Assembly (NCBI GenBank): GCA_029834535.1
Contig: JAQMWT010000003.1
Coordinates: forward strand, 1-64,000
DNA length: 64,000 bases
Direction: 5' to 3'
DNA from: Chrysophaeum taylorii
Taxonomy: Eukaryota; Sar; Pelagophyceae; Pelagomonadales; Pelagomonadaceae
Position numbers and translations under genes: made by a program. How positions within the stretch are numbered: position 1 is the first letter of the stretch; every line of letters starts with the position of its first letter. The notes under the pieces are model-generated. The model had not been told where the DNA came from, did no database searches, and worked only from the letters and a program-made list of their open reading frames with translations. Of the stretch, positions 28,606 through 63,999 are shown piece by piece.

Positions 28606-29253
<648 letters not shown>

Positions 29254-35175: not shown

Positions 35176-35212
35176 CGCCCTCACAGATTGAACGCGAGGA
35201 GCGAAATCTGGA

Positions 35213-37636: not shown

Positions 37637-37866
37637 CAACGTTCGCAGTGGGACGGGGTATGGCCGGGGGGCGAAGACGGAAGGTTATCGACGAGTTGGT
37701 TGTCAGTCACATCGCGGTCTCCTCGTCGCATGGCGACAAGCTTGATGGTCACTCTCCGCCGACCGACCTTTCGGCGCTCCTCGTCTACAGGCCCGTGATT
37801 CCGGACTGGCTCCTGTCGGTCCGGCCTGGCTCCCATGCTCGGGAGAGGTCTGAAGTTAGTTAGTTA
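37637..37866 (+). mobile_element. SINE-like element S6 (5'-truncated)
   Basis: Flanked by perfect 12 bp repeats gtatcaatgata (37625-37636 and 37867-37878). It starts inside the family at caacgttcgcagtggg and ends agttagttag. Confidence 0.9.
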
Positions 37867-39208: not shown

Positions 39209-39610
39209 GTGCGTCAAATTTGCAATGTTTAAGCAGGAAATACTCGGACTTTGATGGTTGCGATTTAGACGGTTGTTGGACAGTTGCCTTGGGTGCCTTA
39301 GGCGTAACGGGCGCAGATTGATGTCCCTGAGCCACCGACAAATAGGTTTGATGCTTCCGATTAGGGGAACTAGTCGGTGCAACGCTTGGAGTTAGAGCAT
39401 TAAAAGGTGGGGATAGTGACGGTGCACCACCACGACCACGGTTCAGGGTAGAATGGCGCCGGCTCGCAGCATCTTTGTTTTTAGTGGGATTCATCGTAGA
39501 AAGAATATCCACATCACATCTTTCATTGCATTTCACATTTTAGCGAGCCAGTATTCCTTTGCATAGCAGGGTTAGTTTAAAGTCATTTCGGACATAATGA
39601 AGGGTAAGGA

Positions 39611-43600: not shown

Positions 43601-43632
43601 AAGATGGAAGTTCGTGGTTAGAGGCAGGATTA

Positions 43633-45590
43633 TCACAACATAAGAGTTTTTTTATTGGAGATGTAGAACATTGTAATGGAACTCTGGTGTAATAATAAGG
43701 GTGTATCTGTTGGGATTATATTTGTGAAGAAGGTTGACCTATAGTTTTTGGTTAGAGGAGCGTGATCAGGGTCAAACGATTGTGATAGTGTTAATATACG
43801 CAAGTCATAAACAAGCTCACACAAATGTTTATAAATTGTATGATATGTTCCAGCTGGAATAGCATTCGCGATTATATCGCAGCATAAGCCCGGGGACAAA
43901 GACAGAAGAAAATTGATTTGGTGCGCTGTGAAGTTATTGGCGCGTGCCAGTTCGCGAGTTGCGTAGTGTCGAATGCGATCGAGTCGTGGATCGTACACCA
44001 GCATATTAGCAAGTCCACGAATGGTAGGAGTGGGAGTGTATATAGAATGAACTTTGGCACCCATCTTCCTATCGCTTGATGTTATAAAGCCCAAATATCT
44101 GCTTTGGGACAAATGCATGTCACTTAAAGCAAATATTTTGTCGATAAATTCGAGACGATTTTCCTGAGGGTAGAAGACAAAAGAATCGTGAAATACAGGA
44201 GAGGTATAGGAAACCAGTGCTTGTACTAGACGACGCGTGTCTTGATTTTCATTATTATGATGGTATGCTTGGCAAAGCCAAAGAAAACCGGTAACTGGTT
44301 CGAGAGAAGCAGTCTTATCGATTCCGGCATCGTGTGTTAAAAGGGCGTAGGTTTCGCCAAAAGCATTTATGTGTGCCTGGTATTTATAAGAAGAGTTAGA
44401 AACTGTTATGTCTCCGCCTGTATGTCTTCCACCAGTGATGTAAATGATGGATGAAGTAGAGGATTTATTTAAGAAAAACCTGTGAGATGGTTGGTTAGAT
44501 TCGATAGTTGTAATACGAAAGGACACAGTACTGTGATAGATTTAGGGAATAAGCGTCCCATAGTATTATAGAGGAACACGAAAGCTTTGAGTTCAATAGG
44601 GGATCTCATGCAAGCAAGTGGTTTTCTTGAATTAGTCAAGAATCCCAGGCGAAAGTTAGAAATGCCCTCCATTTCATCTTGACTGGGATGTTCGACTGTT
44701 TTATTAGAGTGCAGACGAAGGAACAGCATAGTTAAGGTTTCAAGCTCAGTCACAGTTAAGCGCACGGATCCTGTACGACTGAAAGTGTTGTAGGTTTTAG
44801 GTGTGGACACGAATGGTATGTCAGGAAAGACCTGCGTCCAAGGTTCGTCGACTATTAACTTGCGACTGATGGAATTAGCGTGGTCTGCAATGTCCAGAAA
44901 GGAAGTGACTCGTTTATTAGGCCATGAAAGCAGATCAAGAGGGCCGGTGTTATATTTGCGTGCAACGAGGATCCATCTTTCTCTGGCTTGATAATCTCCA
45001 CATAGATAGCATGGAAATCGGTCACATATGTCCACCGTATAGTGCATCGTTGAGAAGATGAGATTAGCAACTCGTATATGATCTTCATACGATGCGGAGT
45101 GTGGTGGTGTCATTTCCATGAAAAGAACAAGCGGCTTTAAAAGCTCAAGTACACTTAGAGCACTTGGAAACAAGGAATCATCCATATCACGCTCGAAGGT
45201 GGAAATGGATCTCCCATTGATTATGTTGCGATTTGTGCATGGTGATGTCAATTCCACTATATCGGTGTAATATCGTGCACGTTCAACGTCCGATGCTCGA
45301 TGGAGATATGTCAGAAACTTAGGACTTAGGTAGGGATGGGAAAACTTCGATGGAATTACCAAAACGTCTTCGTAGCATGTGCGTGATATTGTCGTCGCTC
45401 TCAACAAGAACTTTAACGTTGATGTTGATTTGCAAGTCATTAGAAGCGCAAGCCAAGAATGCAGGAGTGGACATCCCAGAGCAAAGTAGAGTTACTGTAG
45501 GTTTTCGTGGGCTAGGAGATGAAGTTACTGTATGGAGCAAACGTGTGGTAACCTTGCGTCATACGGGAGGTGGGAAATGCTTGCGTATGT
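43633..45590 (-). pseudogene. C5-cytosine DNA methyltransferase of element B
   Basis: Motifs in C5-methyltransferase order on the minus strand. Motif I: VTLLCSGMSTPAFLACAS (about 45500-45440). Motif II-III: VLVESDDNIT and DVERARYYTDIVEL. Motif IV: SPC (45245-45237) with the next residue Thr instead of Gln. Motif VI: LVLFMEMTPP (Glu kept). Motif VIII: DYQARERWILVARK. After a long target-recognition-like insert comes motif IX, IRHYATRELARANN, and motif X, IIANAIPAG (about 43875-43850). Frames change near 45350 and 44500. Layout and the IRxxAT..E..A / ANA(I/V)P end match the element A enzyme. It lies between protease and integrase. PCT for PCQ and EMT for ENV mean activity is uncertain. Confidence 0.72.
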
Positions 45591-48222
45591 AAGGCAGCTG
45601 CGAATGCATTGACTCCAGGATGGTTTTAAGCCATGGGACGTAAATTACGCGTTCCATGAGGGTGGAATATAGTTTAAGCATTTCGCGTTGTTCATTAAAA
45701 GCACATAGTCTGAACTGTAGTGAGCGAAGTTCCATTTTGCGCGCTTTTGCTTGTTGTAGCGAATAAATTGGTAGAGTTGGCAACAGGTTACTGAGTCTAA
45801 ACAAAGTAATCTTGACATTATCATCAATTTTACTCTGGATAGATGATTGTCCTTTAAATTCAACTCCATAAAGATGTATACCAAGTTTATCTTCTCCCCA
45901 TTGAGTCATACTGATGATGTGCAGATCGGGATCGTTATGGTCGTTTTGCTTGGGTAGAAAAAGCGCAACGTCTAGCTTTACATATCCCACATTTGGATGC
46001 TTTGGGAGAGCGGGAATGACGGTCCTTATAATCATAGCATGTGTGATTCTCTGCGTATCCGTAGCAGTCTGGATAGCAGGTGATAAGGACTCGGGTAGCT
46101 TGACGATGTGAATAGGATCAGTATAACGTTTAAAGTTGATTACATGTTGAGAAGCACATGTGTCAGCATATCCTGGCGTAGTCATTAGCGGCAAATTGTA
46201 CTCGTTGTACAGTTTAAGCATTGTTGCATAACAGGCATGTGTTGAGCTTTGACCAAACACGCACTGTGTCATGAAACTTTGTGTTTCTTCGGAAGGCACA
46301 ACGACGAGTGTAAAATCAGTGTTTAATTTTGGTAGCAACACAGGGGGATCTGTGCCATCTTCATTATCTTCATTGGTGAAATTACTGGAGAGCTCAGAGT
46401 GCGAGGAAGTTTCCCGAGCTTGACGACGAACAATAGCATTCTGAGCTTTAGCATTTATGTGCTGCAATAGCGGCTGATGGATGTTATTGATTTCATCATC
46501 TTTAATGGACAGGAAAGTGTGGAACATTTTCTCTGTATCAGCAGTCCCCCTCTGCTCCGCATCACTGGGGGACGCTTCAGGAGCAGATGTTTCAGTTTGA
46601 TACTTTTCTTCTGAAACAAGAGATTCCTTATCGGCTTCTAAGAGGCTCGATATGGTATTGGACATAGTATCAACTCGAGATAAGTAGAGATGAACTTGGG
46701 TGGCTTCGTCAGGATCTAAGGACTGTGTCGAAGCTTGAGAAGCGGTTGTCCAGAGGGTACTCAATGAGCTTTTCATTTCCTCCTGTACCATTTTAGAGTC
46801 GGTGGAAGGGCTGGGATTCGCTTCCTGTAATTTACCAAACAGGTGGCGAAGACGATCAACTTGATAAGTAGCCCGGTCCATAAGAGACATATTAGAGCGT
46901 GCATTGCGGTTAGAGGAAGATGAGTAGACAGGACGATCGAAGCTGGTACCTTTGACGTTATAATTCGAGGGTGGACGATAGTACGACGCGTCACGGGGTG
47001 AAATTGTCGATGCTTTGTCTTTTGCATTACGAAGCTTACGAGCGTTGAAGCCAGACTGTCCAGCTACAGTGGCTAACAACGAGTAAGCGTTGTTAAAAGA
47101 GTCGTGGGATTGATGAATAGTATCCATCAATAATACCTTAGGTGGCTTGGTAGCGGTAGTACCAGGGATGTAAGGGATCCAGGAAGCGGGTTTATCCAAG
47201 CGTCGGTTAGAGGGAAACTTTGTTTCATTGTATATTTGTAACAAGAACGCCAATAACGGACGAACGTCGTTAGGATCAACTAGCTTTAACAATTCAGGAT
47301 CGTGAATCGAGTTGCTCCCAGAACGTGTCTCGTAGAGTTTACACCATTCCAATAAAGATTGAGAATAGCGCTCGTGATCCGAGGGATTAGCATATAGACG
47401 GTAGATCTCCTCGTGAGCTTTAAGAGTGATTATGGAGTTATTAAATTGGATTGATGCTTCATCATTATTTAATTGCATTGCCTGAGATTGGAAAGCAAGG
47501 AGTTGTTCGACAAATACATGGGCATACCAATTAACATTTAAAGACATTCGATTAAACTGAGATTTAAGCTCAGTAACATCTGTACAAGACACTGTCTCAT
47601 AGTAGTGGTAAGCTAAAAGCATTACTGCACGTAGTTTATTAGGATGTGCAGTAAGTGCATACATCTACTTTAATTGAGGCCACATAGCGAGTGCTGGTTT
47701 GTCTTGTGATTCCAGATTTAAAAATGTGTACAAGAAACCAGCATAAGTTTCGCAGTGTTTGATCCAGTCGGTATTAGAGAGACCTGTAAAGGATATGTTA
47801 GTTAGAGAAGAATCATACACAATTGATTTAGGGAATCGGGTATCTAATAGATTGAGGACACGTTTAACATCCTCATTTAATTCGGGACGAACGAGATTAT
47901 AGGACTCTTTGTAATAAAGTCGTTCGAGACTGTTACGGACATCAACTGTTAGTTGATGTGATGAATTGACATGCCAAGTTTTAAAATGATCAGGCAGGGC
48001 ATCTTCATCAGGTAAGTTTAAATCGCTTACTTGTTCAGCTTTCCATTGAGCGAAGATGATATCAACCTCTTGTTCAAGAAGTTGATTATACTCCGGAGCA
48101 TTCCGGGTGTAAGCTTCATATGAATCGAAGCAGAATAACGCGTCCACATATGGACTTGTCATATACCTGCGAAGCACCTCAATTTGCAAGCTCACCTTGG
48201 TTGAGTTGTCTTGGAAACGCAA
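45559..48222 (-). CDS. Element B gag-protease with one in-frame TAG
   Basis: Gag begins MRFQDNSTKVSLQIEVLRRY (48222) and reads 185 codons to a TAG (47665-47667). The same frame continues for 701 codons (MYALTAHPNK) to 45559. The second part has a helical capsid-like region, a disordered Ser-rich stretch and, near 46170, the aspartic protease motif TPGYADTCASQHVI (copia type: D-T/S-G-A-S, here with Cys for Gly). No CCHC knuckle was found. The stop could be a mutation or, less likely, programmed read-through. The product forms particles and processes the polyprotein. The methyltransferase follows in another frame. Confidence 0.8.
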
Positions 48223-48773
48223 TCCTGCGTTAATTTATCAACGAGGATTTGTTCTTGTTTGTCGATATCCGTGGTGGATATTGGTTTTTGTTTTGACATG
48301 ATTGTGGCCTATTAAGGAATATGTTATAGGATTGATAGACATATTCGACACGTAAGAATGAAGGGTTTCTCGAGTGTGGGTTCTATGTACAGTACGCTGT
48401 TTTAAACGTGGGCTTATTGACAAGACCAAACAAATCAACATGCTATTTTAAAAACAGGATGACTTGAGACTGAAGGATGGATTAATTCTCGAGCAGTCAG
48501 TCTTTTGTTGGGGAATGGAAGGAAAAACCCGTACAAGTTTCCGCGGCTTATATAGGAAAAATTTTTAATTTTATTAGCTATGCGAGTGCATATGACCAGT
48601 GACCGACCCAACTCGGTCACAAACCAAATTAACTGGTGGGCACATACCGTCACATCACAAATATGTACAGTAAACTACCGCCAAACACACTGTCGCATTG
48701 TACTCGTGATCAGGCGTAAATTGATCACTCCATTTATACGTACAACACAGTTGGGCTGACACACCTACGCATC
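48223..48773 (-). other. Untranslated leader of element B
   Basis: AT-rich, with no ORF of note. It lies between the primer site and the gag start. Nothing else was recognised. Confidence 0.6.
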
Positions 48774-48786
48774 TGGGCCCATAACC
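48774..48786 (-). promoter_or_regulatory. tRNA primer-binding site of element B
   Basis: Minus strand ggttatgggccca, directly after the LTR. It is complementary to gggcccataacc of the initiator Met tRNA anticodon arm, the half-tRNA priming used by several Ty1/copia elements. The identical site follows the left repeat of the miniature element at 36240-36251. Confidence 0.75.
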
Positions 48787-49191
48787 TGGAGAGATTTGAC
48801 CCTCTCCGGGTACATGGTAGAGACTGCGTGCAGTCTTATACGTGTACAGACCATTCCGCTTGTCACATGCTACTACACAAGGTGCGGATTTAAGCCCTAA
48901 CTCCTTAAGGACATTAGGCCCCATAGAAGCGTTTACACTGACAAAGAGGGACGAAGCCTCTGTTAATTAAACAGAAAACCCCGTACCTGACGGTACGCAC
49001 CTGGAGGCCTACTCCATGTTGGAAAAGAGCTTCAGACTGGGTTCTTCATAGTCATGAATAAGTAATCGCGGAAGGGTAAGGAAGGACAGGAGGAACGAGG
49101 GAAAAAAGCCGTATTACGGAGAGAAAACCCTCGTGTAGAGATAGGTGTGAAATGTTCCGGTGTCGCACACATAATAGTGTAGCTCTCTGGA
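48787..49191 (-). repeat. 5' LTR of element B
   Basis: 405 bp, tggagagatttgacc..gctctctgga on the plus strand. It pairs with 35926-36755. Outer flank gtagc (49192-49196) is the target duplication. Confidence 0.93.
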
Positions 49192-49196
49192 GTAGC

Positions 49197-49893
49197 GAAG
49201 TAAAACATATAAGTGCAGAAGGTGTGTTTGGTCGGGGTTGTGCATCCCTTTGCAGCATTTGTTGCACAAGGTGGTGATGTCCGGCCGACATGTGACAGAC
49301 AAATAAATGCTGGTGCCACAATAGAAAGGGAAGTTTTGGCGTAATACGTCTAAGGTAGTAGCCAAGTCTGAGCGAAGTTTAGTATAAGGTTTGTGGGTGA
49401 GGATGTCCGAATAGGGGACGTCTAGGCTATGTAGGTTGAGCTTATTATCAGCATGCATTTTATTGATCTTCGCTGCTACATTCATAGTGAGATGACCAGC
49501 GGAGACATTGTAGTGGACATCGATGCCAAGAAAGGATCTGATGTTGTCACGCCATGTACCCTTGCCACATTCGGTCTCCAGAGCGGTGCGAAGAGACGCA
49601 ATTTTGGCGGTGTTGGTACCAGTGATCAATAGGTCATCGACTGAAACGGATAGTAATACCCATTTGTTGATAGGTCGATCCCGATTGATATAGAGGCAAG
49701 TAACGACTTGTGAGCGTTCGAACTCATGTTGTCGAAGAAATGAGTCGAGCTTAATGTTCCACAACAAAGCTGACTGTTTGAGGCCGTAGAGAGCCTTGAC
49801 GAGTCGGAGAGCGAGCTTCGACTCTGGATGGTTCTTCTGCATCTGCTGGATAAGATTTGGCGAGACACGTATTCCTCAAGGAAAGTCGATCCA
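49197..49893 (-). pseudogene. Element A reverse transcriptase, C-terminal part
   Basis: SKLALRLVKALYGLKQSALLWN, LLSVSVDDLLITG (Ser for Tyr in the catalytic box), FLGIDVHYNVSAGHLTMN and STSIYLSVTCRPDITTL-like sequence, ending LLRY where B is inserted. Upstream, WIDFP is followed by an in-frame TGA near 49880. SINE-like copy S8 separates it from the N-terminal part. Confidence 0.88.
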
Positions 49894-49905
49894 TACTGGG
49901 CGATC

Positions 49906-50267
49906 CCTTACCCTGATCGCCGACTGCGGTTGCGATGGAGGACGGTGCCTCATGAATCCTGAGCCTTGCGAGGGCATCCGCCCTCCCGGCGTAGGTTGGC
50001 ACCTATTCGCCTCCCGGGCGGGCCGGTTGGCAGCCGGAACGTTCGCAGTGGGACGGGGTATGGCCGGGGGCGAAGACGGAAGGTTATCGACGAGTTGGTT
50101 GTCAGTCACATCGCGGTCTCCTCGTCGCATGGCGACAAGCTTGATGGTCACTCTCCACCGACCGACCTTTCGGCGCTCCTCGTCTACAGGCCCGTGATTC
50201 CGGACTGGCTCCTGTCGGTCCGGCCTGGCTCCCATGCTCGGGAGAGGTCTGAAGTTAGTTAGTTAGT
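49906..50267 (+). mobile_element. SINE-like element S8 (full length)
   Basis: Perfect 12 bp duplication tactgggcgatc (49894-49905 and 50268-50279). It starts cettaccctgatcg-like at ccttaccctgatcgccg and ends gaagttagttagttagt. This and S7 define the full-length family of about 360 bp. Confidence 0.92.
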
Positions 50268-50279
50268 TACTGGGCGATC

Positions 50280-52184
50280 GAGTGCCGATTGGATGAAAGC
50301 CTGAGGAATGTCCGCGTGCGCGACGGGGAGCTTGTGCTTCACAGCGATGGCGAGCAGTAGCCGGTTGGTAGCGAGCATTGCGGTTGGGGAGGATGTGGCA
50401 TAAAAGTCAATGCCTACACGTGCCAAGAAACCTCAGGCGACTAGACGAGCTTTATAGCGGTCTGGAGTGCCGTCAGCAAAATACTTGATCTTCAGCACGA
50501 GCTTCGTCGAGATAGACGAACGGTCTGGCGGTAAAGGCTCAAGCTTGAAGACACCATTGGAGCACAATCCCTCAATTTCCTTGCGAATCGAAGCTATATG
50601 CCTTAACTTGTCTTCTTCGCTGAGTCCTTTGAGTTCGACAATCTTTTCAGGCTCATAGACAACATCTTCAGCGGTCACAAGCTGTAACACGACGTGATCG
50701 ATGTGTTGCAAATCATAGTCCATGACTTCTTGTAGAATATCTTGATTCGGATCACTTTGACTTAGGAAGAGGTGTCCGAGTTCGCCAGAATCATGCATGA
50801 AGGCATGCCTGTGACGAGAAGCTAGATGGTAGTCTTGATGCGTGGAGATGTCCCACAAAAGAGAGGAACCCATACAACAGAATTCTTGATTCCATTGACG
50901 CGCATAGTACTCTGCCGGTAACATTTCGCCATGGCACACGTAGTTCTCGAGAACAGAATTGTCGTTATCAAGGTGGTCAACCAACACAGACGAGTGGAAT
51001 GACTTCCTTGGGAAGTCAACATACAAGAGTTCCGCGTCGGTTTCTCTCTGCAAATCCAGTGCGGTGCCGCCCATGATACCATAGTCTTGTGTGGTACTTG
51101 CTAGGAGACATCCTTTCGGGACATCATTAGGCGGCTTAGCATCTCTTCGAATATTGAGAGCAGAGGCGATGCTGGCGGCGTGGCCCTGGTGCAGAGCGCT
51201 GACACTGATGAGGAACATCAATGTGCTGGACATGTTGGCTGTGGCGTGAGCCGTGGATTGCTCCTGCTGGTATTTCCAGTTGCGACCATACTCTGAGGCG
51301 ATAATGCGTCTGGTGGAGAGTTTTTCATCATCAACACGTCTCACGATATAGAGTTGATCCTCAGGGATGCGAAATCCACGTTCGTCATTGAGATCTGCTT
51401 TGAGCTTATCGCTCTGGTTGCGATGCACGAGAACTGGGGTAAAACCTGAATCATCGAGAACAACCTCTAGGCGGTCTTTTCGTTTGGGCATCGGAATGCT
51501 ACCATCCGGCGGAGGTGGCCGGTTGAGGAACAAAAAATCCTGTTCATGTGTCGCGTCGCTGACGGGACTTGAATCCGCAGCGGGAGTTGGATCCAGTTCT
51601 TTGTGTTCGTCGTCATCGCTAGGTTTATCATCGTGCTCGTCTTCGTGAGTCTCGCCCTCATTTTGCGATTCCTGTCTAACTTCCGGCATTTGCTGTTCGC
51701 TTATAGCTGGTAGCGGGTCCTCTTGTCGTGCCTCTGTTGGGATCTGTGCGAGTGCTTTGATCCGTTCGATCTCCTTGTTACGGTTGACTGGCATGTCTGC
51801 GTCAACATGAAAGTCGTTAGAGGTGACGATTTTTCCATATCGCCCTTGATGTACAAGCAAGATAGAGCTGTGAACATCTCGGATAAATCGGTCCGTTCCG
51901 GGGAGGTTCGGGAGATAGTTGTTACTATGAAAGTAAGAGGCGGAGACGCTGGAGGGTTCCAGTTTGCGACTTTGAGGGTAGACAAAAGTGACAGGCTTGC
52001 CGAAGGGGAGAAGCTTCAAGAGCGGTGCCATGGGTGACATGATACGCAGGGGAACGGTGCATGTCATGTTTGTGCGCGAGGGCAGTCCATGAGAGCTCTG
52101 GTTGTCGGCTTGGATCTTATGCAGGAGAGCACAAGAGTGAGTGATAATACTCAGCGGCAATAGACTTTCCTTCGATGCGTACAC
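50280..52184 (-). CDS. Element A integrase C-terminus, linker and reverse transcriptase N-terminus
   Basis: Open from 52184 to a TGA at 50433-50435 (583 codons). It opens with the integrase C-terminal region (TVPLRIMSPMAPLLKLLPFG, FVYPQSRKLEPSS). An acidic, disordered linker follows, then VLQLVTAEDVVYEPEKIVEL and the reverse transcriptase start SISTKLVLKIKYFADGTPDR, RYKARLVA. The TGA sits where B and D have Arg (KARLVLRGF), so it fits CGA to TGA. The frame continues GFLARVGIDFYATSS and HADIPQAFIQ up to S8. It belongs to the same polyprotein as the integrase upstream, from which a frameshift near 52150 separates it. Confidence 0.85.
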
Positions 52185-52950
52185 TGCGAAGGTTGAGGAG
52201 ACGAACTACGGTGCCTCGGGTGTTTTCCTTGATAATGTTTTCAGCAAAGTTCCGCTGATGGAGGTGGCGACCAAGGATTTTGAATTGGAGACCAAGCTGC
52301 AGCTTGAGAGGGTGGAAGGCTTCCGAGCGAAAAGTTGAGAATGCGTCAGAGGATATGATCTTCACATGGACATCGAATTCGACTTTAATCACATTGACCA
52401 CATTGAGGATGCCGGCCAGAACATCCTCTGCGTCTAATTTCCGCAGGAAATAGACCCATTTGTGTGCTGAGATAATACACACGAAGTGCGTGACAGAGCG
52501 AGATCCGCCGTAGCACTTGCGGATGCTCGGGTATGACACATCCATGTGGAGGTGTTGGCCTGGAGCATAGGCCAGTTCATCCTGTGACCAGGAATTGATT
52601 TTGTGACTGAAGCTTATATGCGATTGGCAGCGCTTGCGTTCACTGCAGTCTTGCAGATACCGATCATCACCTGGGCGGAGATTCGTTACATTAGCGGCAA
52701 TCGTGCGGCGAAGAATCTCTGGTTGCTGGTGGTGTATGCGGTGCCAGCGAGTGACCAACAGCACTCTCTTGGCGTGCTGAGTGGTGCCGGGCTGGTTCAA
52801 GGGAGGCAGAGCGGCAGTCGAAGCGCTGGGGGGGGCTGGGTCGCTTGTCGACTTGGATTTTAGCAACGGCTGCCTCGGCAAGAAGCGTCTCGAGGCTTGT
52901 CGATTTGCTTGGTTTGCGGATCGCATCATGGTGAGCATCTGCAACGGCAT
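52117..52950 (-). CDS. Element A integrase core
   Basis: A zinc-binding-like HRIHH ... CSERKRC leads into a DDE core: HLHMDVSYPSIRK (first Asp), KIISSDAFSTFRSEAF (second Asp) and HQRNFAENIIKENTR (Glu). This is the copia integrase arrangement, placed after the methyltransferase. It would insert the element cDNA, making the 5 bp target duplications seen here. The core itself is uninterrupted. Confidence 0.82.
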   Translation of the reverse strand: MPLQMLTMMRSANQANRQASRRFLPRQPLLKSKSTSDPAPPSASTAALPPLNQPGTTQHAKRVLLVTRWHRIHHQQPEILRRTIAANVTNLRPGDDRYLQDCSERKRCQSHISFSHKINSWSQDELAYAPGQHLHMDVSYPSIRKCYGGSRSVTHFVCIISAHKWVYFLRKLDAEDVLAGILNVVNVIKVEFDVHVKIISSDAFSTFRSEAFHPLKLQLGLQFKILGRHLHQRNFAENIIKENTRGTVVRLLNLRSVRIEGKSIAAEYYHSLLCSPA

Positions 52951-53099
52951 TGAAGAGGGAGGTGAGGTTCAGGTCTTCCTCTGCTAAGAGACGGCTGGAG
53001 ATGGCCGAGAAGAATTCTGCAACCTGGTTGATGTCTCCGGGGCTGAGGATGCCATGGCGTATCGTGGCCCATTCGACGTGAAGGTTCACGTGGTGGTGC

Positions 53100-54720
53100 G
53101 ATTCGTGGAATGCGAGGACAGCGCTGTACTTTGCCTGCAACATGTGGTGCGGGACGGCGTTGGCCAGTGCCTTGAACGCGAAGTACGGCGGGTGCTATTT
53201 GAATAGGCGGAGCAGTTCCGGGTCCGAGTGGTGTCCAAATTTTGCGATTTCGTTGAGGGTCGCGTAGCGAATGTGGTCTGGAGAGATCAGCAGCAAGGCA
53301 TTGGAGTAGCTCGTGTTGGTGGGGTATGAGCCAGTGACCGAGTAGCATTTGGTGCTCTTCTGAAGCGTGTCTCCGATGTGGCCGACATAGTCCGCGTAAG
53401 TGGGACGTGCTTTGGACATTAGGAGTCCCTTGGGGTCATCGAGAGCAATTCGCCCTTGTGAGTCGATCGCGGCAAAGCCAGGATGCGAACGATTCATATA
53501 GTGGACCCAAGTGGACGGGCGCGAAGAGCTGTGAGCGGCGGCCAAGGGGGTGGTGTAAGCGACGACCAGAAAGGCGGTGCCCTTGGGAACATCCAGGGAA
53601 AAGGAGTGCGTTGGGGAGAAGACTGCGGGTTGATGGGAACAGTCCAAAATCTGAGGGGGCCTGGAATGTTGTGTGAGGGAGGCGCGCGAGAAGTATCCAC
53701 ATGCGACGGCAGTAGCGGCGGTGCCGGTGATGGCTCCATCCATCAAATGGTAAGCACATTGAGACTCTGGGGCATGAAAACAGCGGATGGTGTTCCAAGC
53801 GGCGAGAGTGGGGTGTTGCGACAAATGGTTGTGCAGGAGCGTGAAGACCAGGAGGTGGGAAAAGGACGCCATTGTGGCGTAGGGGGTGCCGTCGGCATCT
53901 AGACCGAGATCCGTGAAGGGCTTGGTGGGACGTGCGAGCATTTGGCAGATGCGGGCATTCTCGGAAATCGAGAGTTTCGAGGCGTTGGCGGGCTAGTCGC
54001 AGTAGGTAGCCTTGTGCTGGTAGTAGTCCAATGTGGAGCGGGGCACGGTACCACGAAGGGCGGGTTTGGCGATCCATAGATCGTCAGGGATGGTGTGACT
54101 GGGGTCCAGAAGAGGAACCCATGCTCGGAGGCGAGGTTAACCAAGGAGAGGCGGTTTTCTCGAGGTTGTAGCCTGTGAGCGGGTGCCGGGCATACACAGC
54201 GAGATAGCGTGTCTTGCTGATGACGTCACCAAAGGCAGAGGCATTGTAGACGCCGGAGTGGCGGAAGTAGCCTAAGCGCTGATGACCTTTGGCGAGTTGA
54301 GCATACTCGTGGTGAGTTCGGGGGTTGGGAGGTACGTTCTCGATAATGGCATAGGTCGGGAGCGTGCAACGAACGAAGCGGATTTGTGCTTTGACGAAAA
54401 GGTCGGCGGTGACCGGAGTGGCATGGCCGTCGTATTCTTTCATTACACTCAGATGTTGACAGGGCAATGTAAAAACTGCCAGGTCCAATGTAGGTAGTCG
54501 CATTTTGCCGGTCTGGAGTGCGGCATTGAGTTTCCTTAGGTCCGCATAGTGCTGGGCGTGCGGGAAGAGTTGTTGCACACGGGTGCGCAGGATATCGTTA
54601 ATTTCGCAGGTGACCACGACAGTAAGGCGTTTGTCGAATCGTTTGCGAAAAGTGTCGAAACCTTCCTGGTGAAGTCCACCTGCAATAATGGCTGTTTTGA
54701 GCAGAGGGGGTTGTGTTTGC
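53100..54720 (-). pseudogene. C5-cytosine DNA methyltransferase of element A
   Basis: Catalytic part (open frame 55379-54084). Motif I-like LLKTAIIAGGLHQEGFDTF near 54700. Motif II TVVVTCEIND and motif III YADLRKL. Motif IV LDLAVFTLPCQHLS with the PCQ catalytic Cys (54455-54463). Motif VI YAIIENVPPN. Motif VIII ISKTRYLAVYAR. A one-base shift near 54100-54170 and a TAG near 53993 break it. The 280-residue recognition region follows (53941-53195), with motif IX DHIRYATLNEIAKFG and, after another TAG (53195), motif X ALANAVPHHML (about 53170-53140). It would methylate cytosine, perhaps in the element's own cDNA. It lies between protease and integrase. Broken copy, but all key residues are kept. 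Confidence 0.85.
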
Positions 54721-54729
54721 ACAGAGAGG

Positions 54730-55581
54730 TCTGCGGTGCCATTGAAGGCGTATTGGACGACAGTATGTTGGAGGTTGAGCAGTTCGTTGAGATACCGTGA
54801 ATGATTTTGTAACTTCGCGAAGTCAAGCGTGTGCGATTGTGAGCGTGTCTTTGCGACATGCTGTGTGATGTGTGCAATCTCATCCTTGAGTGACATTCGC
54901 TTTCTTGTGTGAAAGCTGACCACAGTGGCGAATATTTGCTTTGGATGGGATGGCAGGGACAACAGGCCGTTTGGTTTGCGAGCGGCGAGTACGACGGCGG
55001 TCTTTCGTAGAAGTGTTGCATAATCGTGGGGGTCGGAGGTTGAGGACTTTAGAAGGTCATAAAGGTAGGGCTCGTGGGGAAGTGGCGGGTCTGTTGCTTG
55101 TACATGCAGAGCTTTGAGCTGAGATGTTGCGATAACTCGAAGACCTTGCCTGAATTGCGGGACGACCATAAATGCGAGATATAAAGCGTAACCGGTTTTG
55201 TCTTTTTGTATCATTTGAAGAGAGACCTGCAGCCTGCAGATACAACGGTTTAACACCGATGAAGTGGCTGGCGAGGGTGCCTCGTCCCATATGAATGGTG
55301 TGTTCGGGAATTCGGCGTATGGTATCGGGAACAAAATTTTCAATTGTGCGCGTAAAGCAAAAAGATGCGCCACCGTCAATCAATGAGGTTTCAGTGCCGG
55401 GGCCATTGCATCCGTGCAGTGGGCTAGTCTTCTTTGAGGTCTTTTCTGGGGTGTAAGCTTCACAAAGAAAATCTGCGACTCTTGTGGAAATAGTTGATGA
55501 GGTCGGGAGATTCGTCATCTGGAGGTTTGGTGCCTGATGAAGTAATGTGTGGTTGGCGGCAAAGGCGTCGTCGGCAACCAT
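54730..55581 (-). CDS. Element A protease and linker
   Basis: The protease motif is SLIDGGASFCFTR (about 55395-55357), the copia D-[ST]-G-A pattern with an extra Gly, followed by HTIHMGRGTLASHF. A frameshift near 55210 moves the protein to KDKTGYALYLAFMVVPQF and a helical linker that runs straight into the methyltransferase. The product cleaves the polyprotein. Confidence 0.7.
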
Positions 55582-58275
55582 CAGCGAAAAAGCCGACTCT
55601 GGTGGAGAGCACGCATGTAGTCACTGAGACGTTTGGCGTAGTCTTCGGCGGAGTCATCTTCATCCGTGGTTTCGGGAACGGTATCGTCGTATAGGTTTAT
55701 CTGACCGTTGTCGTCGTAGAAACCGAGATGTCCGTTGTCGTCTTATTCATCGGTGTCGGCTTCGCCCTCATCAGGTTGATCGTCTTGGGGATCTAACTAA
55801 CTAACTAACTAACTTCAGACCTCTCCCGAGCATGGGAGCCAGGCCGGACAGGCAGGAGCCGATCCGGAATCACCGAGGAAAATCGCGCAGTTGGGGCAGA
55901 GGACAGGGACGAGGACTCGTTGATGACGGACCGCCACTGCGCGCGGTCTTGTGCGAAGTCGTGCAAAAGCGTCGCAGGCCGCAAACGTGTTGGTCCACGA
56001 ACAATCGACCTGTCCGTCGCGTGCTGTCTAACCGAGCGAACCCCATCCCAGCGCGGACTTTCCGGGTGCTAACCGGCCAGCCCGGGAGGCGAGCAGGCGC
56101 CGTCTCACTCCGGGACGGCCGGGGCCGCCGCAGGGAGCAAGCGTGTTAGGCGCCGTCCTCCATCGCAACCAACGGCTAGCGATCGCAGGGTCTTGGGGAT
56201 CGGACGTTAACATCTGGAGGAATTCGGCGGCGTCGTTTTCGGCTTCGGAAAGAAGTATCTCATCGGAAATGGTGGTGATGAGGTTGATGAGCTTGGTCAT
56301 ACGCTCGGAGCTGGACGTATGTTGGCGACCGGCTTGGCTAAGATTCCGCATGGTTTGGAGCTTGCGACGGACGTCACGAAGGGGGACCTTGAAGCGTTGG
56401 TCGGGCGTGTATGGTTTGGGTTGATGAGGTTGTGTGGGGAAGGTGACCTTGCGAAGATGTGGGTGCTCGCGTTCGTCCGGGGTGACAGGAGGAGCGCGGG
56501 GACGTTGCTTGTTCTTCGGTGGGGTGACAGGGGTGGCCTTGGGCTTCGGACTGTCGTTGATGTCGTAGTAAGACGGGAGCGAGGATTTGGAGGCTTTTTG
56601 TTTGGAGGGGGCTTTTTGACGTGCCGCGAAATTTGCTTCTTGCGGTAGGCGTGTAGTTGGTGAATAAGGTCATTGTCTTCCTCTTGATCAAGATTGGCCT
56701 CCGTGAGAAAAGCAGCGACGGGGTCGGTGTCTTCAATGGGGTCCGGTGGGGTGTCGCTGAGGAAGAGGTGTCATCATCGTCTTCGGTGAGGTGGAGACCA
56801 TGACGGCGGGAGCGAAAGCGGGGGTTGTCTTTGTCCTTTGTTGGCAGACGACCAACGTCCGTAACGAAGCGCAAAGGCTTGAAGTTGAGAGTTGGGTGAG
56901 GCTTGTGGTGAGCCCGAAAGTTGCGCTCAAACGACGAAATGACGGTGATGCGAGCGATGAGCTTAGGATGGTGGTGGATGGCTTCCTTGTCTTCGTCGAG
57001 TAACAGCGAGTCGTTGGGATTGCGCAGACAGTTAGCAAGACGTGCAAAGCCCTTGATGTGTGTTGGGGCGCGGGAGTCAAGCAAGCTTGGGGGGTACTTG
57101 AAGCGGAGAATTTGGTGAATTTCTTCGAGGATCTTGTCGTCGGGAAGTTGGAGAGAAGCATCCGTGGTGATCTGGCGCAGTTGTTGCTGGACATGACGCA
57201 TGTAGTCGATGTAGTGAGCTGGCTCATGGATTTCAGGGTTGAACGGCGTGTCCAGAAAGGCATTGTAGACGTAATGCGCATGGTGGATGTGGTTCTGGCC
57301 CGTGTGCTTGTCGAGTGCGAGGCGAACTTGAAGCACAAATTCGAGTCATATCGGGTAGGAGGATCCGAGTGCATCGATTTCGTCGTATGCTGGGTGCTTG
57401 ACGGAGTCGCTACCGGCATGTAGGAAACGGCGAAATAGGGGGTGTACAGTCTCACGGAGATATACGATGAAGTCGGCTTCTTTTCCTTGGAGATGGGGTT
57501 GAGTAATTGGATATAACTTGCCTTTTGTCATATCGGTTGGGTCCTTGTCTTGGTCTTTGAGTTCTTGGGGTTTTGGCTCGTATACGTTGTCCTGGAAGTG
57601 CTTGCCGAACTTGCGGTAGACCCCCTTGTAGTAGACGTAACGGCCTTGGAAATCTGGCGTGTTCCCGGCGGTAGAGTGGTTGTCGGGGTCCTTGTCGTAT
57701 TCGTCGATACATTGGCTTAGGAGAGCGTCAGCGAGATCGTCAGATCCGCGCAGGACGGATTCCCACGTGTAGAAGCCATGTAGGAAGTACTGAGTTATGC
57801 CGGTTTCCGGCATCAGATGTTCGACGAACAATTGCATGACGCGAAATGGAAGCATCTGGGGTGTGACTTGAGCGTTGTCCATCGACTTGAGGACGGCGCT
57901 AGGTGGGTCACTAAAGGTGTTAACCTTAGACTTGGGATCTTGTTGAGCTGGAGTGGGAGGCGGAGCCGCAGCAGCGACGGCAGGCGGTGGTGCTTGTGTT
58001 GCTTGCACTTGGGTGGCCAGCGCGCTTAATTGAGCAGTGAATTGTGCCATCGAGCGAGTTTCTTGGTCTTGCATCTCTTGTTTATGCCGAGCTTAGTACG
58101 CTCGAGCTTGGTGTTGCATGTCTCTTTGGTACTTGGCTTCTAAGCGAGCTTCTTGTTCTCGCATCTCCGTTTGGAGTTCCTGAGTGGTTGGCATTTTGCT
58201 TGGGTTCAAGAACGTCAGTGAGCGGGGCTTGTCTGGGAATCCTGAGGCTCTGCTGATACCGGGACTGGTACCCAA
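55582..58275 (-). CDS. Element A gag (with stops and S9 insertion)
   Basis: It starts at 58275 or MPTTQELQTEMREQEARLEA (58191), which is a coiled coil. A TAA follows near 58091, then open frame 58074-57346 (Ala/Pro-rich linker, then a helical capsid-like region MLPFRVMQLFVEHLMPETG). A TGA lies near 57346, with the same frame continuing to 56374 (LALDKHTGQNHIHHAHYVYN). A frame change follows, then the C-terminal segment 56351-56195 up to S9 and an acidic tail beyond it. No CCHC zinc knuckle was found. Gag forms the particle in which reverse transcription occurs. Confidence 0.7.
55794..56189 (-). mobile_element. SINE-like element S9 (divergent subfamily)
   Basis: Perfect 12 bp duplication gtcttggggatc (55782-55793 and 56190-56201). 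Same tail (ttag repeats) and first 40 bases next to it, and the same 5' ccatcgcaacc region, but the middle is different and longer (gcgcagttggggcagaggac..). 396 bp. Confidence 0.88.
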
Positions 58276-58279: not shown

Positions 58280-58475
58280 TAGAGAACAGTAATCACAACT
58301 GTGTTACCCTTCAGCAGAGCGTGAGAACAGTGGTAGTCTGTCCTCGAATCTGTCTCTTGATCGAGGACAGCCGGTGTGAACAACACAGCGTTTTCTTAAA
58401 TCAAAAGGTGGCAAAGTTAAGTGAACTAACCCTATAATAGGGGGTACTAACCCTAGTTCAGATTTTCTATCTCTA
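58280..58475 (-). repeat. 5' LTR of element A
   Basis: 196 bp, tagagaacagtaatcac..ttttctatctcta, pairing with 34980-35175. Outer flank ccttt (58476-58480) is the target duplication. Confidence 0.93.
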
Positions 58476-58480
58476 CCTTT

Positions 58481-59027
58481 CAAATAGCGGAGTAAAACAT
58501 ATAGATGCAACAGATGAGTCTGCTTAGGTTTATGCACGCCTTTGCAACATATGTTACAGAGTGTGGTGATGTCAGGACGACATGTGACAGAAATGTAGAT
58601 GCTAGTGCCACAGTAATGCGGAAAGTGTTTACGAAGAACTTCCAAGGTAAGAGCAATGTCCGTGATTAACTTCGCCGAAGGCTTAGTAAGAAGCATCTCT
58701 AAGTGAGGTATGTTGGAGCTGAGGTACGTCGGAGCCTCGAATATTGAGCTTATGCTCGGAGAGCATCTTGTTGATGATAGCTGCGACGTTCATGGTAAGA
58801 TGTCCAGCGGGTAAGCTGTAGTGAACATCGATGCCAAGAAAAGATCGGATATTGTTCTGCCAAGTGGCCTTTCCATATTCCTGCTCAAGGTGAGTGCGAA
58901 GAGAAGATATTTTGGTGGTATTGGTACCAGTGATCAGGGGATCATCGACTGATACAGAGAGGAGGGTCCATTTATCAGTAGACCTGTTCCAACGGATATA
59001 GAAACAAGAATCCCAGCAGGACGTCAC
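58481..59027 (-). pseudogene. Element C reverse transcriptase fragment
   Basis: FYIRWNRSTDKWTLLSVSVDD, ITGTNTTKISSLRTHLEQEYG, FLGIDVHYSLPAGHLTMNVAA, then a frame break and CGTSIYISVTCRPDITTL, ending LLRYLKG where A is inserted. It is close kin of element A. On the right it is cut by gypsy element E at 59028. Confidence 0.85.
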
Positions 59028-59401: not shown

Positions 59402-60480
59402 TTAGCGCGTAGCGCGAGCCTTCGCGTCTTGAGCATCTCGAAGACGGACGAGCTTGTACGCTCGCTTAACAACAGGGTCAGGAACCCGACCGCTGCGAAG
59501 GGTGAACTTGGGAATCAACACATCGATTTCGTGTGGAGAAAAGTCAGTGACACAAGGAGTGGTATGTTTGGTCAACTTATACCGATCGGTGGAACTTCGA
59601 CCGTCGACATCATTGTATTCGGGCTTAAGCTTGCGGGTAGAAAGAAGAGAAGTAGGCTTAAAATACGAAACCTCATCTTGCGGCCTAAGGTCCGAGCAGA
59701 AGTGCAAAGCGACCGGATGATTCTCGCAATCATAGGGCTCATGAACTTCAGCGACATATATTTTCTTTGCGCCAATTGGATTTCTTGTGATCGGGAATCC
59801 GGAAAACGACGAATTTGCCATGTTTGTAGTCATCACGAAGAGGGTCTTTCGGCTGGGAAATCGCCCGATCAACTATCGGGGGACCATAACAGGCGTGATT
59901 TGGCTGACATGAACATTGCGGCGCTCCGGCGGCGAATCAAGGGATTCAATCTTATAAGTAACAGGCGAAAGTCGCTCGGTGATCACAAACGGCCTCGCCA
60001 CTCAGGACGCAACTTGTTCTGCAGGAAAGGAATGTACTGCAAGACATGGGTCCCTTCCTGATACTCGACATCCACGTGGACTGCATCATAGGCCAATTCT
60101 GCTTACGTCGAGCCTTATCGTGAGCACCTCCCACAACTCTCGTGTAAAACTTCGAAGTTTCACGAGTCTCAGTCAACGCACCTGCACGGGTCTTAGGCAA
60201 CCGCCGAATGTCCATATCCATAAGCGAGTAATCGGTCGGCAGTAAGGGCTGGCGATTGAGTCGAAGCATGAACGGAGAGATCTGCGTGCCCGGAATAAAC
60301 TTGCAATTGTAACAAAGCGCGATATAGTGCCCAAAGGCGGGCCAATCCGCAATGCGGTGACACAGAAGACAAGCACGAAGGAACGCCTTGACAAAGCTGT
60401 TCACGCGCTCAGCAGGGTTCGACCGGGCATGGTAGGGGATGGTGGTCTAATAGCGAATGTCAAAAAGGTGACAAAACTCT
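59402..60480 (-). pseudogene. Element E integrase core end and C-terminal tail
   Basis: It joins LPQMIRTDNGKEFANKL (Asp of the DDE core, just upstream) to HARSNPAERVNSFVKAFLRA (Glu in NPAER). The C-terminal part has TQISPFMLRLNRQPLLPTD, then a basic segment, then a long tail (FPITRNPIGAKKIYVAEVHEPYD, open 59872-59402) ending in KLVRLRDAQDAKARATR. A TAG near 60455 and several shifts interrupt it. No clear chromodomain was recognised in the tail. Confidence 0.7.
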
Positions 60481-61860
60481 TGCATCAACTTGTTTGCAAA
60501 CTCCTTCCCGTTATCAGTGCGAATCATCTGAGGCAGATACCCCTTGAGCATAATATTGGTGACAAAGGACTCGAGGCTCGACTCAGGCGCCGAGCCCATC
60601 CTTAGACGCATCAGATCGAATCTGAAACGGCAAATCGTAATAGGGTGATATACACCTCTGGAATCGACCAAACCGGAGATGATCGTGTCCCAGGGCTTCT
60701 GACACTCGGGCGTCCATTTGAACGGTACACCTTGAAGACACAGACGTCTCGACGGTTCCACAATTTTGGAGTAGTCCTTCACATAACGGCGGCAGTAGTT
60801 GCTCATGCCGATAAAGGACCTAATCTGAGTTTTCGGCGAAGTGTTGGGCAAGGTCCCGGGAATCGGCTTGTTCTGCAGCGCTTCCAACGTCTTAGGATTC
60901 GGCTTCAAACCGTCAGGGGTAGAAATATGGCCCAAAAACTCAATGTCATCCTGGAGAAGGTAAAACTTCGCGGTTCGACCGCTATATCCTCGTTGTGCCA
61001 GATGACACCGAACTTCGATCAAAACTTGCAGGTGACTGTGGAGATCGTCGGATCCCATCATGATATCGTCAACGAAGGCGACTAAATCCTTGTACATCCA
61101 TTTCGACAGATCGCTTGCCATCTGCTTGCAGAAAAGGGCTCCCGCGGTTTTTACTCCTAGGTAAGCGCAGGAAGCTATGAGCTCCGAGTGGGCTGACCAT
61201 CGCGACAGCGTCCTGGGCTGCAGAGTCCAGACGATGATTGTGGTATCCCCATCTAATATCAATGCATGTTATCCAACGGCGCATCGCGAGGAAAGCCAAA
61301 GCATCATCCTGTCGAATGTTCGGCAAACTGTCATTGACTAGCTGATCATTGAGCTGTCGTAAATCAACTGCAGCCCGAAACGCGTTGGACGTTCCACTTT
61401 CGGCTCCTTTCTTGGGCAACATCAATACAGGAAATCCCCAAGGAGAATTCGCAGGGCGGATGACTCCATCGCGGCATCATTCGGTGATCTGCTTGCGAAG
61501 GCACTCGAGCTTAGCTGGCGTCAAACGGTGGGGCGTCATCTTGATCGGCCGTGGATTCGCCTCCCTAGACCGCAGAGATACCGGCGGAGAGTCCACTGGT
61601 CTCATGATCGGATCGAAGAATGCCCAAGGGCATTGAACGCAGTGACTGAGCATCAGCTTTGCATCCTCATCCAAGTGCGGTTTGTCCGGTATTCCAAGCT
61701 CTTTGACGACTTTCTCGACTTCTTCTTTCGTTTGCAGCTTGACCTTCATCGCCTCGTTATCCTTGACGTCCTCGGGAGTTTGCGGCAAAGGTGCACCATC
61801 TGCGTCGCGCGGTGCATTCTTCCACGACACATCGAGCTTTTTCTCCTATTTGAATCTCGC
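60447..61860 (-). pseudogene. Element E reverse transcriptase (RNase H deleted)
   Basis: Gypsy-type motifs in broken frames: PRPIKMTPHRLTPAKLECLRKQITE, SPWGFPVLMLPKKG, FRAAVDLRQLNDQLVNDSLPN, WITCIDIRWGYHNHRL, CAYLGVKTAGALFCKQM, and the catalytic AFVDDIMMGS. After these come FYLLQDDIEFLGHISTPDGL and IRSFIGMSNYCRRYVKDYS. FKWTPECQKPWDTI, the usual start of RNase H, is followed within 20 residues by integrase sequence, so RNase H and the integrase zinc region are lost. Stops near 61480 and 61070. Confidence 0.82.
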
Positions 61861-62039
61861 TTTTGGGTGACTCTTGTTGATCTTCTCGCCTTGACTCGCA
61901 CGCTTGGCTCGCTCTTAACCTTAGGTTCCCGATTTTGTTCCGAGTCAGGTGGAACGTCCAATTGCGGTTGTCGGGGGGTGCAGCAGAAGGAGCATGAGAC
62001 GTCCCCGTCGCATCTGGAGTAGGCGGAAGTAAAGAAACC

Positions 62040-63090
62040 TCAGGAGGTTTCCACTTGGTGCGATCCTGGTGATCGGTAGGGGATACCCATTTGACACACA
62101 TGGGTGCGCGTGTTGAGCAGCGGAACCTGCACGTGACAGAGAGTAGTGTCTGTAATATGCAAGTAATGCTCGAAGGGTCGGTCGGCGGGGCTGAAAGCGG
62201 CTGGCAATACTTCACCAATTTGCTGGAACCCTTCGGTTACCGAGTTGTGCAGATCTACAGCCAAAATGGCGATTGTGTCAGGAGGAGCAACCGACGCCAA
62301 ATGTTTGAACAAAGCTGTTTTGGATAGGCCTGCCCAGTCACAATCCGTGGGCATAGTGAGCAATTCTGCGGTCATCTTCTGAGTCAGCGGTTTGGTGTCG
62401 GTCCGATGGGTTCCAATCGAAGAGGGACACGCGTCACCCTGTAAGCAGTATCCGCAGCGTCTCCGGATGAACCCAACTTATTCATTTGCAGCAAGTACCG
62501 TCCCTTTTCGTAACCAAGCGGTGGTGCGAAACTTTCGCGCATATTCAAGCGGGTTTCTGAGCCTCGCGCAGGTGCAGCGAGTGGCTAGAAATGAGCAACT
62601 GCACACGGCAGCTCATCAAGTTGGGTGTAATGTCTTGAAAATTGACGACATACACGTACGGGTGCAGACGAGCCACGTAGGAGATAATCGACGCCTCTTG
62701 CTCAATTAACCAGATGAGAAACCCAGCTTTCTTGCACAGCTTCATGGTCCAGTGCATGTCAGTGACGCCCTTGCCGACGTCTCTCGAGGTCAGATTGCAC
62801 AATGCAGAATGCACGCATGGCGGCGAGGCAACGCACATCGACGATGACCACTCCTCCTCTGGCAGGTAGTTCCGGATCAAACGCAAGGTTGTATCGTAAC
62901 GCCCGCAGAGAGTATGCTGAACCACCGGAACATTCGGAAATTCGCGTGGTGGACTTGGTTGGCTACGTAGGATGAGTCCAGGGCTAAGACAACCCGGAAG
63001 GAAGTCCCGCACATCTCGTTGGCTCGTTGCAAGCCTAGTGTGCATCCTCCAGGTCCGCCGAACAGCATCACCACCTTGCGGTAAGTGATC
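62040..63090 (-). pseudogene. C5-cytosine DNA methyltransferase of gypsy element E
   Basis: Motif I: VMLFGGPGGCTLGLQRANEM (63071-63012). Motif II: VVLALDSSYVANQVHHANF. A one-base shift near 62935 moves to FPNVPVVQHTL. Motif IV: MCVASPPCVHSALCN, with the catalytic Cys in PPC (62823-62815). Motif VI: MKLCKKAGFLIWLIEQE. Motif VIII: LMSCRVQLLISS. Further on, LTQKMTAELLTMPTDCDW and FQQIGEVLPAAF may be motifs IX and X (weak). The motif I and IV wording and spacing differ clearly from the A and B enzymes, so this is probably a separate capture. It lies between protease and reverse transcriptase. A stop near 62480 and the frameshift break this copy. Confidence 0.8.
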
Positions 63091-63098
63091 GGTAACCA

Positions 63099-63999
63099 TT
63101 AGGCCTTTTCGTGCCGCTTGCGGATCTCACCTTCGGTGGCATACCGACATTTGCGCTCCTCCTCGTCAGATCGATGAGCGAAATCGTAATCCTCGATCTT
63201 CTTCTTACGAGCAGTGGTAGCGGCCTCGGGTGAACGAATAACACTGGCGGCGGCGCCTAACAGCATCGGCGGAGGGGACTCATCGCAATGAGTCGAATGA
63301 CTCGCGACAGAGGCGGTAAAGGATAGACTCCCTTTATCGTAGCTGGTCGCCAATTCTTTCGTTACTTCTTCAATGGCTTCGACGTCTAACTCATCTTGGT
63401 ACCGCACGATATCGCCAAGTGCTAGGACCTCACCTCGCATCACGGTGGTCGGCACTTCTCGCAGAGAAGACACGGCCAAGCGAGCGGATAGTTTGTCCCG
63501 TTCATCGCAGGAAGAACACATGCCGCTGACCAAACCCAGCTGTTCGTAGCCCGGGGACGTCGCGACGAAGACTTGGCCCGATTGCGAGGGCTGCGACAGG
63601 GTGACCGGAATATTGTAGGATCGCCCAGGTCCGACCATCAAGGTGCGCGCGGCATATGCGGTCTCCTTCGGTCTCTTTTGCAATCCGAGGAGGTAAGGTC
63701 GGTGGAACTCCAATGGTCGTCGACACCGACTGACGTTCGGGTGGCGGACGACGAAGATCGTCAGGAATATAATGACGAGCGAACTTTATGGTCTCCACAT
63801 GGATGAGGCTTTGTTTCATCGCGGCGTGCTGATCTCCGTATATGGCAGCATGCACAGGATGGCGCTCAAAAGTCGGCCGAAACGTAAAAATAGGAGAGTC
63901 GACGCGTTTCTCCAAGAACTTGATATATTTCCGACCATGCGCGATTTGAGTTCGATGAAAGGAAATCCGATTATGCGGGTAATCCACTACAGCGCCCAT
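63099..63999 (-). pseudogene. Element E protease end and linker to the methyltransferase
   Basis: At the window edge MGAVVDYPHNRISFHR resembles the C-terminal end of gypsy aspartic proteases. After a frameshift near 63690 the linker reads AARTLMVGPGRSYNIPVTLS, GQVFVATSPGYEQLGLVSG and VPTTVMRGEVLALGDIVRY, typical of the protease to reverse-transcriptase region, ending in a charged stretch near 63105. The catalytic Asp is outside the window. Confidence 0.6.

Follow-up and report, generated by a model that had tools for sequence, protein, structure and literature searches.

A Ty1/copia retrotransposon family of Chrysophaeum taylorii with a predicted C5-cytosine methyltransferase in its Pol polyprotein

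Retrotransposon-borne methyltransferases and the Chrysophaeum locus

Retrotransposons that carry a DNA methyltransferase (DNMT) have been described among LINE, DIRS and Gypsy elements, and their enzymes belong to DNMT3 or to a LINE-specific orphan group; in the sections of de Mendoza et al. (2018, PMC5890265) that treat these elements, the Copia elements of Symbiodinium are without a DNMT, and CG activity in yeast, in the form of de novo methylation, is shown for SymbioDIRS only. One sentence of a 2025 article (PMC12344493) places DNMT3 in long terminal repeat (LTR) Copia and in DIRS elements of streptophytes and dinoflagellates, with reference to the 2018 paper, where the LTR type described is Gypsy. 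The stretch analysed here (the window) covers the first 64 kb of contig C3 (JAQMWT010000003.1) of the Chrysophaeum taylorii assembly (70.8 Mb, 697 contigs). It contains element A, a copy of a large Ty1/copia family in which a divergent, predicted C5-cytosine DNA methyltransferase (MTase) has been captured into the Pol polyprotein, 5' of the integrase. The sequence-only reading of this locus had pointed to the elements of de Mendoza et al., and the comparison is apt: element A shares with the kind described in 2018 a retrotransposon coding region that includes a C5-MTase, a high copy number and purifying selection.

KnitGypsy-Dnmt3 of Klebsormidium nitens, in the portion of PMC5890265 that describes it, is like element A an LTR element with a C5-MTase inside Pol, intronless copies and purifying selection. 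It differs in its Gypsy backbone and DNMT3-related enzyme, whereas element A has a copia backbone, sits in an ochrophyte-like host and encodes an enzyme with PCQ and NAVP motifs and an extended stretch from motif VIII to motif IX. SymbioDIRS-Dnmt3 and SymbioLINE-Dnmt of Symbiodinium, as presented in the same sections, resemble element A in being retrotransposon-borne C5-MTases with many copies, and their host resembles that of element A in having DNMT5 among its ordinary genes, with DNMT1 and DNMT3 not found; their DIRS and LINE backbones and their DNMT3 or LINE-specific orphan enzymes set them apart. The sentence in PMC12344493 agrees with element A in naming copia as a DNMT carrier and differs in referring to DNMT3 members, and section 5 of that article does not describe the enzyme type or the host found here. 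Sola1-1_Ec32 of Ectocarpus is likewise an algal transposon with a DNA methyltransferase, but in the passage concerning it (PMC12477816) it is a DNA transposon with a predicted N4-cytosine or N6-adenine enzyme. The M.HhaI- and Dcm-type bacterial and DNMT1-type eukaryotic C5-MTases share PCQ, ENV and a NAVP-like motif X with element A and are its best structural matches, whereas element A has a degenerate motif I and approximately 300 residues between motifs VIII and IX. Among the matches listed from the open-licence PMC literature, in the excerpts that these provide, none shows a copia element whose C5-MTase is not of DNMT3 type, nor one beside a gypsy element with another MTase. DNMT-carrying retrotransposons are already known and copia has been named in print; the combination of a copia backbone with a PCQ/NAVP enzyme sets this family apart from those.

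The methyltransferase domain of element A

Element A is bounded by LTRs that are 96.4% identical over 197 columns (34980–35176 against 58280–58476, window self-comparison), and the target-site duplication (TSD) CCTTT flanks it on both sides (Table 1). Neither the gag-like open reading frame (ORF) pieces of the element nor their counterparts in other copies matched a Pfam family above the cut-off. The start of pol contains LIDGGAS, which we take to be a protease motif and which is the sole mark of a protease there; no Pfam match to an aspartic protease was obtained for the window pieces or for the open pol frames P0001 and P0002. P0002 is uninterrupted, and Pfam places the MTase at residues 349–475, the integrase (rve) at 1016–1110 (E=0.006, below cut-off) and the copia-type reverse transcriptase (RT; RVT_2, PF07727) at 1686–1931 (E=2.1e-38), all in a single frame. 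This is the Ty1/copia order, with the integrase 5' of the RT. In P0001 Pfam recognises only RVT_2 and the MTase. The second of these two open pol frames breaks off where its locus ends. In two uninterrupted copies a single frame runs through the MTase, integrase and RT, and in all 12 of the ten-kb A loci fetched (L009–L020) blastn identified an A-type LTR on the 5' side of the MTase, as a partial match in L011 and L017. RVT_2, the LTRs and the PF00145 match described below bear out the proposal of a copia-type element whose C5-MTase is flanked by a protease-like region and the integrase.

The motif places in Table 1 were derived from ORF coordinates. The motifs that had been named from the letters alone all lie on the minus strand, each at its assigned position or next to it, and they follow the order of C5-MTases, with PCQ and ENV preceding motifs VIII, IX and X. 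The spacing between motifs VIII and IX, put at 280 residues in the initial reading, measures approximately 300 in the alignment of A copies. The domain is spread over three stop-to-stop ORFs in the window and is broken, because it has one frame change and two in-frame stops relative to an uninterrupted copy. A profile search had been suggested as the check on this domain, and the ORF at 54084–55379 matches PF00145 with E=4.1e-8 (33.5 bits, cut-off 22). The same ORF matches TIGR00675 (dcm) at E=4.3e-7, under the cut-off of that model, and Pfam has no family that matches the two ORFs with the insert, motif IX and motif X.

Table 1. Coordinates of element A, its methyltransferase motifs, further elements of the window and host methylation genes.
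Feature	Position	Strand	Remarks
Element A, decayed copy of a Ty1/copia-type LTR retrotransposon	34980-58475	minus	LTR pair and TSD; element B nested inside
5' LTR of A	58280-58475	minus	196 bp; ends TAGAGA...TCTCTA
3' LTR of A	34980-35175	minus	196 bp
gag-like ORF pieces of A	57346-58092 and 56374-57345	minus	precede pol; counterparts P0003, P0004 in other copies
pol start, protease-like region of A	55057-55620	minus	LIDGGAS motif
ORF with predicted C5-MTase motifs I-VIII	54084-55379	minus	431 residues; PF00145 match at residues 253-391
Motif I, degenerate, TAIIAGGLHQEGF	54657-54695	minus	
PCQ (motif IV, catalytic)	54456-54464	minus	
ENV	54333-54341	minus	
Motif VIII, KTRYLAVYARHP	54180-54215	minus	
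ORF with putative target-recognition region and motif IX	53195-53992	minus	no Pfam match
Motif IX, IRYATLNEIAKF	53237-53272	minus	
ORF with motif X, running towards integrase	52691-53194	minus	no Pfam match
Motif X, ALANAVPHHM	53141-53170	minus	
Integrase of A (rve, weak)	52117-52968	minus	PF00665 E=0.0079, under cut-off
RT portion of A (copia-type RVT_2)	49114-49875	minus	PF07727 E=3.8e-19
Element B, another copia element, nested within A	35925-49190	minus	LTR pieces 96.5% and 96.3% identical; TSD AGTAG
MTase-like motif series of B, before its integrase	43633-45491	minus	motifs only
Element C, Ty3/gypsy-type	59952-63785	minus	RVT_1 28.5 bits, E=1.5e-6, just below cut-off
MTase-like piece of C	62545-63126	minus	5' of Ty3-type RT
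Host DNMT2 gene	L021:1498-2577		clear relative of known DNMT2
Host DNMT5 gene	L022:1006-3537		relative of PDB 7r76, E=3e-143
SRA domain protein	G000:C594:64137-64520		

A second line of evidence comes from A1, an alignment of 11 uninterrupted A copies, which was compared with a reference profile of 46 C5-MTases of less than approximately 70% mutual identity (M.HhaI plus 45 of the 80 viral-contig proteins that it detected). The two matched with a probability of 93 and E=3.2e-7, and PCQ was aligned on PCQ and ENV on ENV. The host DNMT5-like and DNMT2-like proteins gave E values of 1.1e-13 and 4.1e-17 against this profile, the three negatives (integrase, RT and gag of element A) all gave at least 0.25, and none of 12 shuffles went below 0.06, with 0.072 as the next lowest value. 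PF00145 was also found singly in 9 of the 11 A1 members at E<=0.01, with 34.6 bits for member 1. The domain of element A is predicted from these comparisons to be a C5-MTase homologue. A chance likeness of short motifs within a compositionally odd spacer would fit the modest Pfam scores and the motif series of element B, which falls short of significance; it is extremely improbable given that two profiles match, the second with negative controls and shuffles, that the motifs are conserved across copies and that the region is under purifying selection. For element A, chance resemblance is refuted at the level of the profile, conservation and selection tests.

Several results weigh against the assignment or limit its precision. 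Two of the 11 A copies do not match PF00145, the scores of single copies are low and cover approximately 130 residues, and the A profile reaches only E=0.039 for its best match in the PDB. A structure model built with 28 viral-contig MTases, to which the A domain is 19–27% identical, matches C5-MTase structures and places motif I at the end of strand 1; this usable model is partly circular, and a single-sequence AlphaFold model has a pLDDT of 31. No relative of the long VIII–IX insert was found. In a set of 5.8 billion proteins, where candidates must have 5-residue words in common with the query, no relatives were obtained for the window ORF at an E limit of 1e-3 (4914 candidates scored), for A1 at 0.01 (7999 scored) or for residues 270–900 of P0002 at 0.01 (7998 scored). 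A tblastn search of phages gave no relatives, and viral contigs gave none for elements A, B or C.

The 431-residue MTase ORF has at least 106 matches in the genome, a lower bound since 97 of 648 first-look candidates were scored. The integrase of element A has at least 143 (137 of 782 candidates scored) and the ORF with the insert and motif IX at least 150 (144 of 370 scored). Merging left 135 integrase copies and 97 MTase copies. An MTase piece lies directly upstream in 117 of the 135 integrase copies: both pieces are present in 77, the insert/IX piece only in 38 and the catalytic piece only in 2, leaving 18 with neither. Other copies of the family retain the domain in this place, two of them in frame with integrase and RT. 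Four of the 18 copies without a scored MTase upstream were read over approximately 2.9 kb upstream each. One contains a diverged MTase in pieces, with approximately 42–48% identity in the main part and a closer end piece, two retain only the C-terminal end of the MTase, and one has lost motifs IX and X and keeps just 33 matching residues immediately 5' of the integrase. A clean MTase-less A element was not found among these four.

Element A seems to have inserted into an older copia RT (58485–58961 and 34193–34981, approximately 70% like A). Short G+C-rich repeats resembling miniature inverted-repeat transposable elements are located at 37638–37868, 38844–39207 and 49905–50268 (98–100% alike) and at approximately 55790–56180 (approximately 76%), and occur in A, in B and elsewhere. 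Direct repeats were observed in or beside A copies, one of 217 bp with adjoining units (L009:1957–2390) and one of 201 bp with units 234 apart (L011:9415–9849).

Selection, mutational footprint and proposed role

Ratios of nonsynonymous to synonymous substitution (dN/dS) were calculated as median pairwise values by the Nei-Gojobori method, using segment copies without stops that were at least 95% covered. The source was 48 A-type loci, several of which represent the same copy, and identical sequences were counted once. The ratio is 0.16 for motifs I–VIII (25 copies, 300 pairs), 0.25 for the VIII–IX insert (16 copies, 120 pairs) and 0.19 for motifs IX–X (27 copies, 320 pairs), compared with 0.15 for the protease-like (PR) region (17 copies, 113 pairs), 0.17 for the integrase (5 copies, 10 pairs) and 0.14 for the RT (4 copies, 6 pairs). 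The MTase domain is under purifying selection comparable to that on the RT and integrase.

Of 25 copies, 24 retain PCQ, 24 retain ENV, and all 25 have the cysteine of PCQ and the arginine of motif VIII. Motif IX reads IR(Y/H)AT in all but one of the 15 copies that have letters there, and motif X contains N-A-V or N-G-V in 24 of 27. DNMT3 enzymes carry PCN in motif IV and a motif X without NAVP; this signature is absent from element A, where PCQ and NAV/NGV occur at the frequencies just given, and the enzyme is, as judged by these motifs, unlike DNMT3.

Copia elements complete their double-stranded cDNA before integration, so an enzyme beside the integrase would be at hand when the cDNA is finished. 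The MTase would be made as part of Gag-Pol and, released or retained, would be present in the particle with RT and integrase, where, either ahead of integration or in the course of it, it may methylate cytosines of the new double-stranded cDNA or of DNA flanking the insertion. The long VIII–IX region may read the target sequence. DNMT5 is a maintenance-type methyltransferase, and as the host encodes both DNMT5 and an SRA protein, it could copy a mark placed by the element. New insertions would thereby resemble host DNA that is already marked, or would have the strength of their silencing set. We infer that the A enzyme methylates the cDNA of its own element, and a captured C5-MTase in a copia Pol that methylates element DNA is, taken as a whole, likely the best explanation of the data.

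The mutational record lends no clear help to this explanation. Single-copy changes were pooled over the PR and MTase segments, dropping columns with two or more minority copies, and transitions were found at 29 of 3009 CG site-copies (0.0096), 10 of 1793 CHG (0.0056), 57 of 5471 CHH (0.0104) and 133 of 14415 A/T (0.0092). In motifs I–VIII alone the CG value is 6/1074 (0.0056), and in the PR region alone it is higher, at 4/272 (0.0147), on small numbers. A clear CpG transition excess, a trace that methylation of CpG might leave, is thus lacking in the single-copy changes of element A. The CpG observed/expected ratio is approximately 1.0 in A, 0.93–0.99 in B and 1.09–1.21 in C, and reaches 1.26–1.46 in three host pieces and 1.32 in a Helitron-like stretch; the low ratio is shared by B and C and is confounded by G+C content. 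Also counting against an active enzyme is motif I, which lacks the FxGxG that is the usual S-adenosylmethionine-binding pattern of C5-MTases in 25 of 25 copies and conserves its own form, TAIIAGGLHQEGF. The dN/dS values of the integrase and RT rest on 10 and 6 pairs, and related pairs are not independent.

These results bear on whether the fold is catalytically dead and retained within the polyprotein to bind DNA or RNA or to help assembly. The degenerate motif I, the partial retention of the motif VIII pattern QxRxR and the lack of a clear CpG footprint would all be accommodated by such a role. A mere scaffold need not retain the motif IV cysteine in every copy or ENV in nearly all, and the dN/dS of motifs I–VIII is about as low as that of RT; we regard a dead fold as unlikely.

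Methylation of RNA in the manner of DNMT2, acting on element RNA or the tRNA primer rather than DNA, would also leave no clear CpG footprint, and de Mendoza et al. propose RNA methylation for SymbioLINE-Dnmt in the part of their paper devoted to that element (PMC5890265). The host DNMT2 gene is separate and a clear relative of known DNMT2, element A does not match it (the hhalign comparison also missed true pairs), and the VIII–IX insert may resemble a DNA target-recognition region, which together make an RNA target improbable. Equally improbable is a benefit to the host, in which the domain restrains the element by drawing DNMT5/SRA silencing onto new copies. The genome does encode DNMT5 and an SRA protein, and the idea is also raised by de Mendoza et al. 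(PMC5890265); against it, the family has spread with the domain, as 97 merged MTase copies, several of them uninterrupted, and the 96.4% alike LTRs of the window copy indicate. Methylation of element DNA by a captured C5-MTase remains the preferred reading.

Further elements, host genes and meaning of the family

Element B contains the motif series CSGMSTP, SPCTN, YQARERWILVAR, RHYSTRELA and NAIP. The region has no PF00145 match and its profile E values of 0.031, 0.057 and 0.13 are not significant; its piece at 43633–44541 has 132 matches in the genome, and B probably carries an MTase, as suggested by the motifs. The window pieces of element C do not match PF00145 either, and its relatives L137 and L139 do, at 34.0 and 37.6 bits in two stretches each. 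In L139 the MTase continues in frame into a Ty3-type RT (translation, by eye; the profile search lists PF00145 only). By these matches, the Ty3/gypsy family C carries another, different predicted C5-MTase. The MTase regions of A, B and C do not match one another.

The genome has 121 PF00145 rows, in which DNMT5 and DNMT2 are the two recognised host genes. For a further 63 rows the match is confined to the ends of the profile, and the four that were opened (L051, L137, L138 and L139) are family C-like. The remaining 56 match the same part of the profile as element A. No DNMT1 or DNMT3 was recognised among the 121 rows, a result weakened by introns, by the scope of scored candidates and by these 56 rows, which were not inspected singly. 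The methyltransferases of A, C and probably B may supply most or all de novo methylation, such that parasites would write the methylome and the host, with DNMT5 as its only recognised DNA cytosine methyltransferase, would just copy it; this extension is doubtful. The DNMT2 gene adjoins a gene for a light-harvesting protein whose nearest matches are VCPI-6 (8zo9) and further antenna proteins of the FCP or PCPI name, an indication of an alga with a secondary plastid of red type, probably an ochrophyte.

Elsewhere in the window, long ORFs at 18740–25440 (plus strand) resemble a Helitron replicase-helicase, and a further copia RT/RNase H fragment is present at 7026–9239 (minus strand). An ORF at 32652–33959 (plus strand) has a PHD-finger-like end and is possibly a host gene; these three features were identified by eye. 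A long simple-repeat tract at 28558–29490 encodes RERERE and SLSLSL in several frames.

To the LINE and DIRS elements and the single Gypsy lineage among DNMT carriers, element A adds a copia family whose enzyme is not DNMT3-like, and two, probably three, families of DNMT-carrying retrotransposons occur within one compact genome. At 70.8 Mb, this genome would be cheap to cover by methylome sequencing. If active, the enzymes would offer a natural experiment on the benefit that a parasite draws from methylating its own cDNA, and on the source of de novo methylation where DNMT5 is present and neither DNMT1 nor DNMT3 has been recognised.
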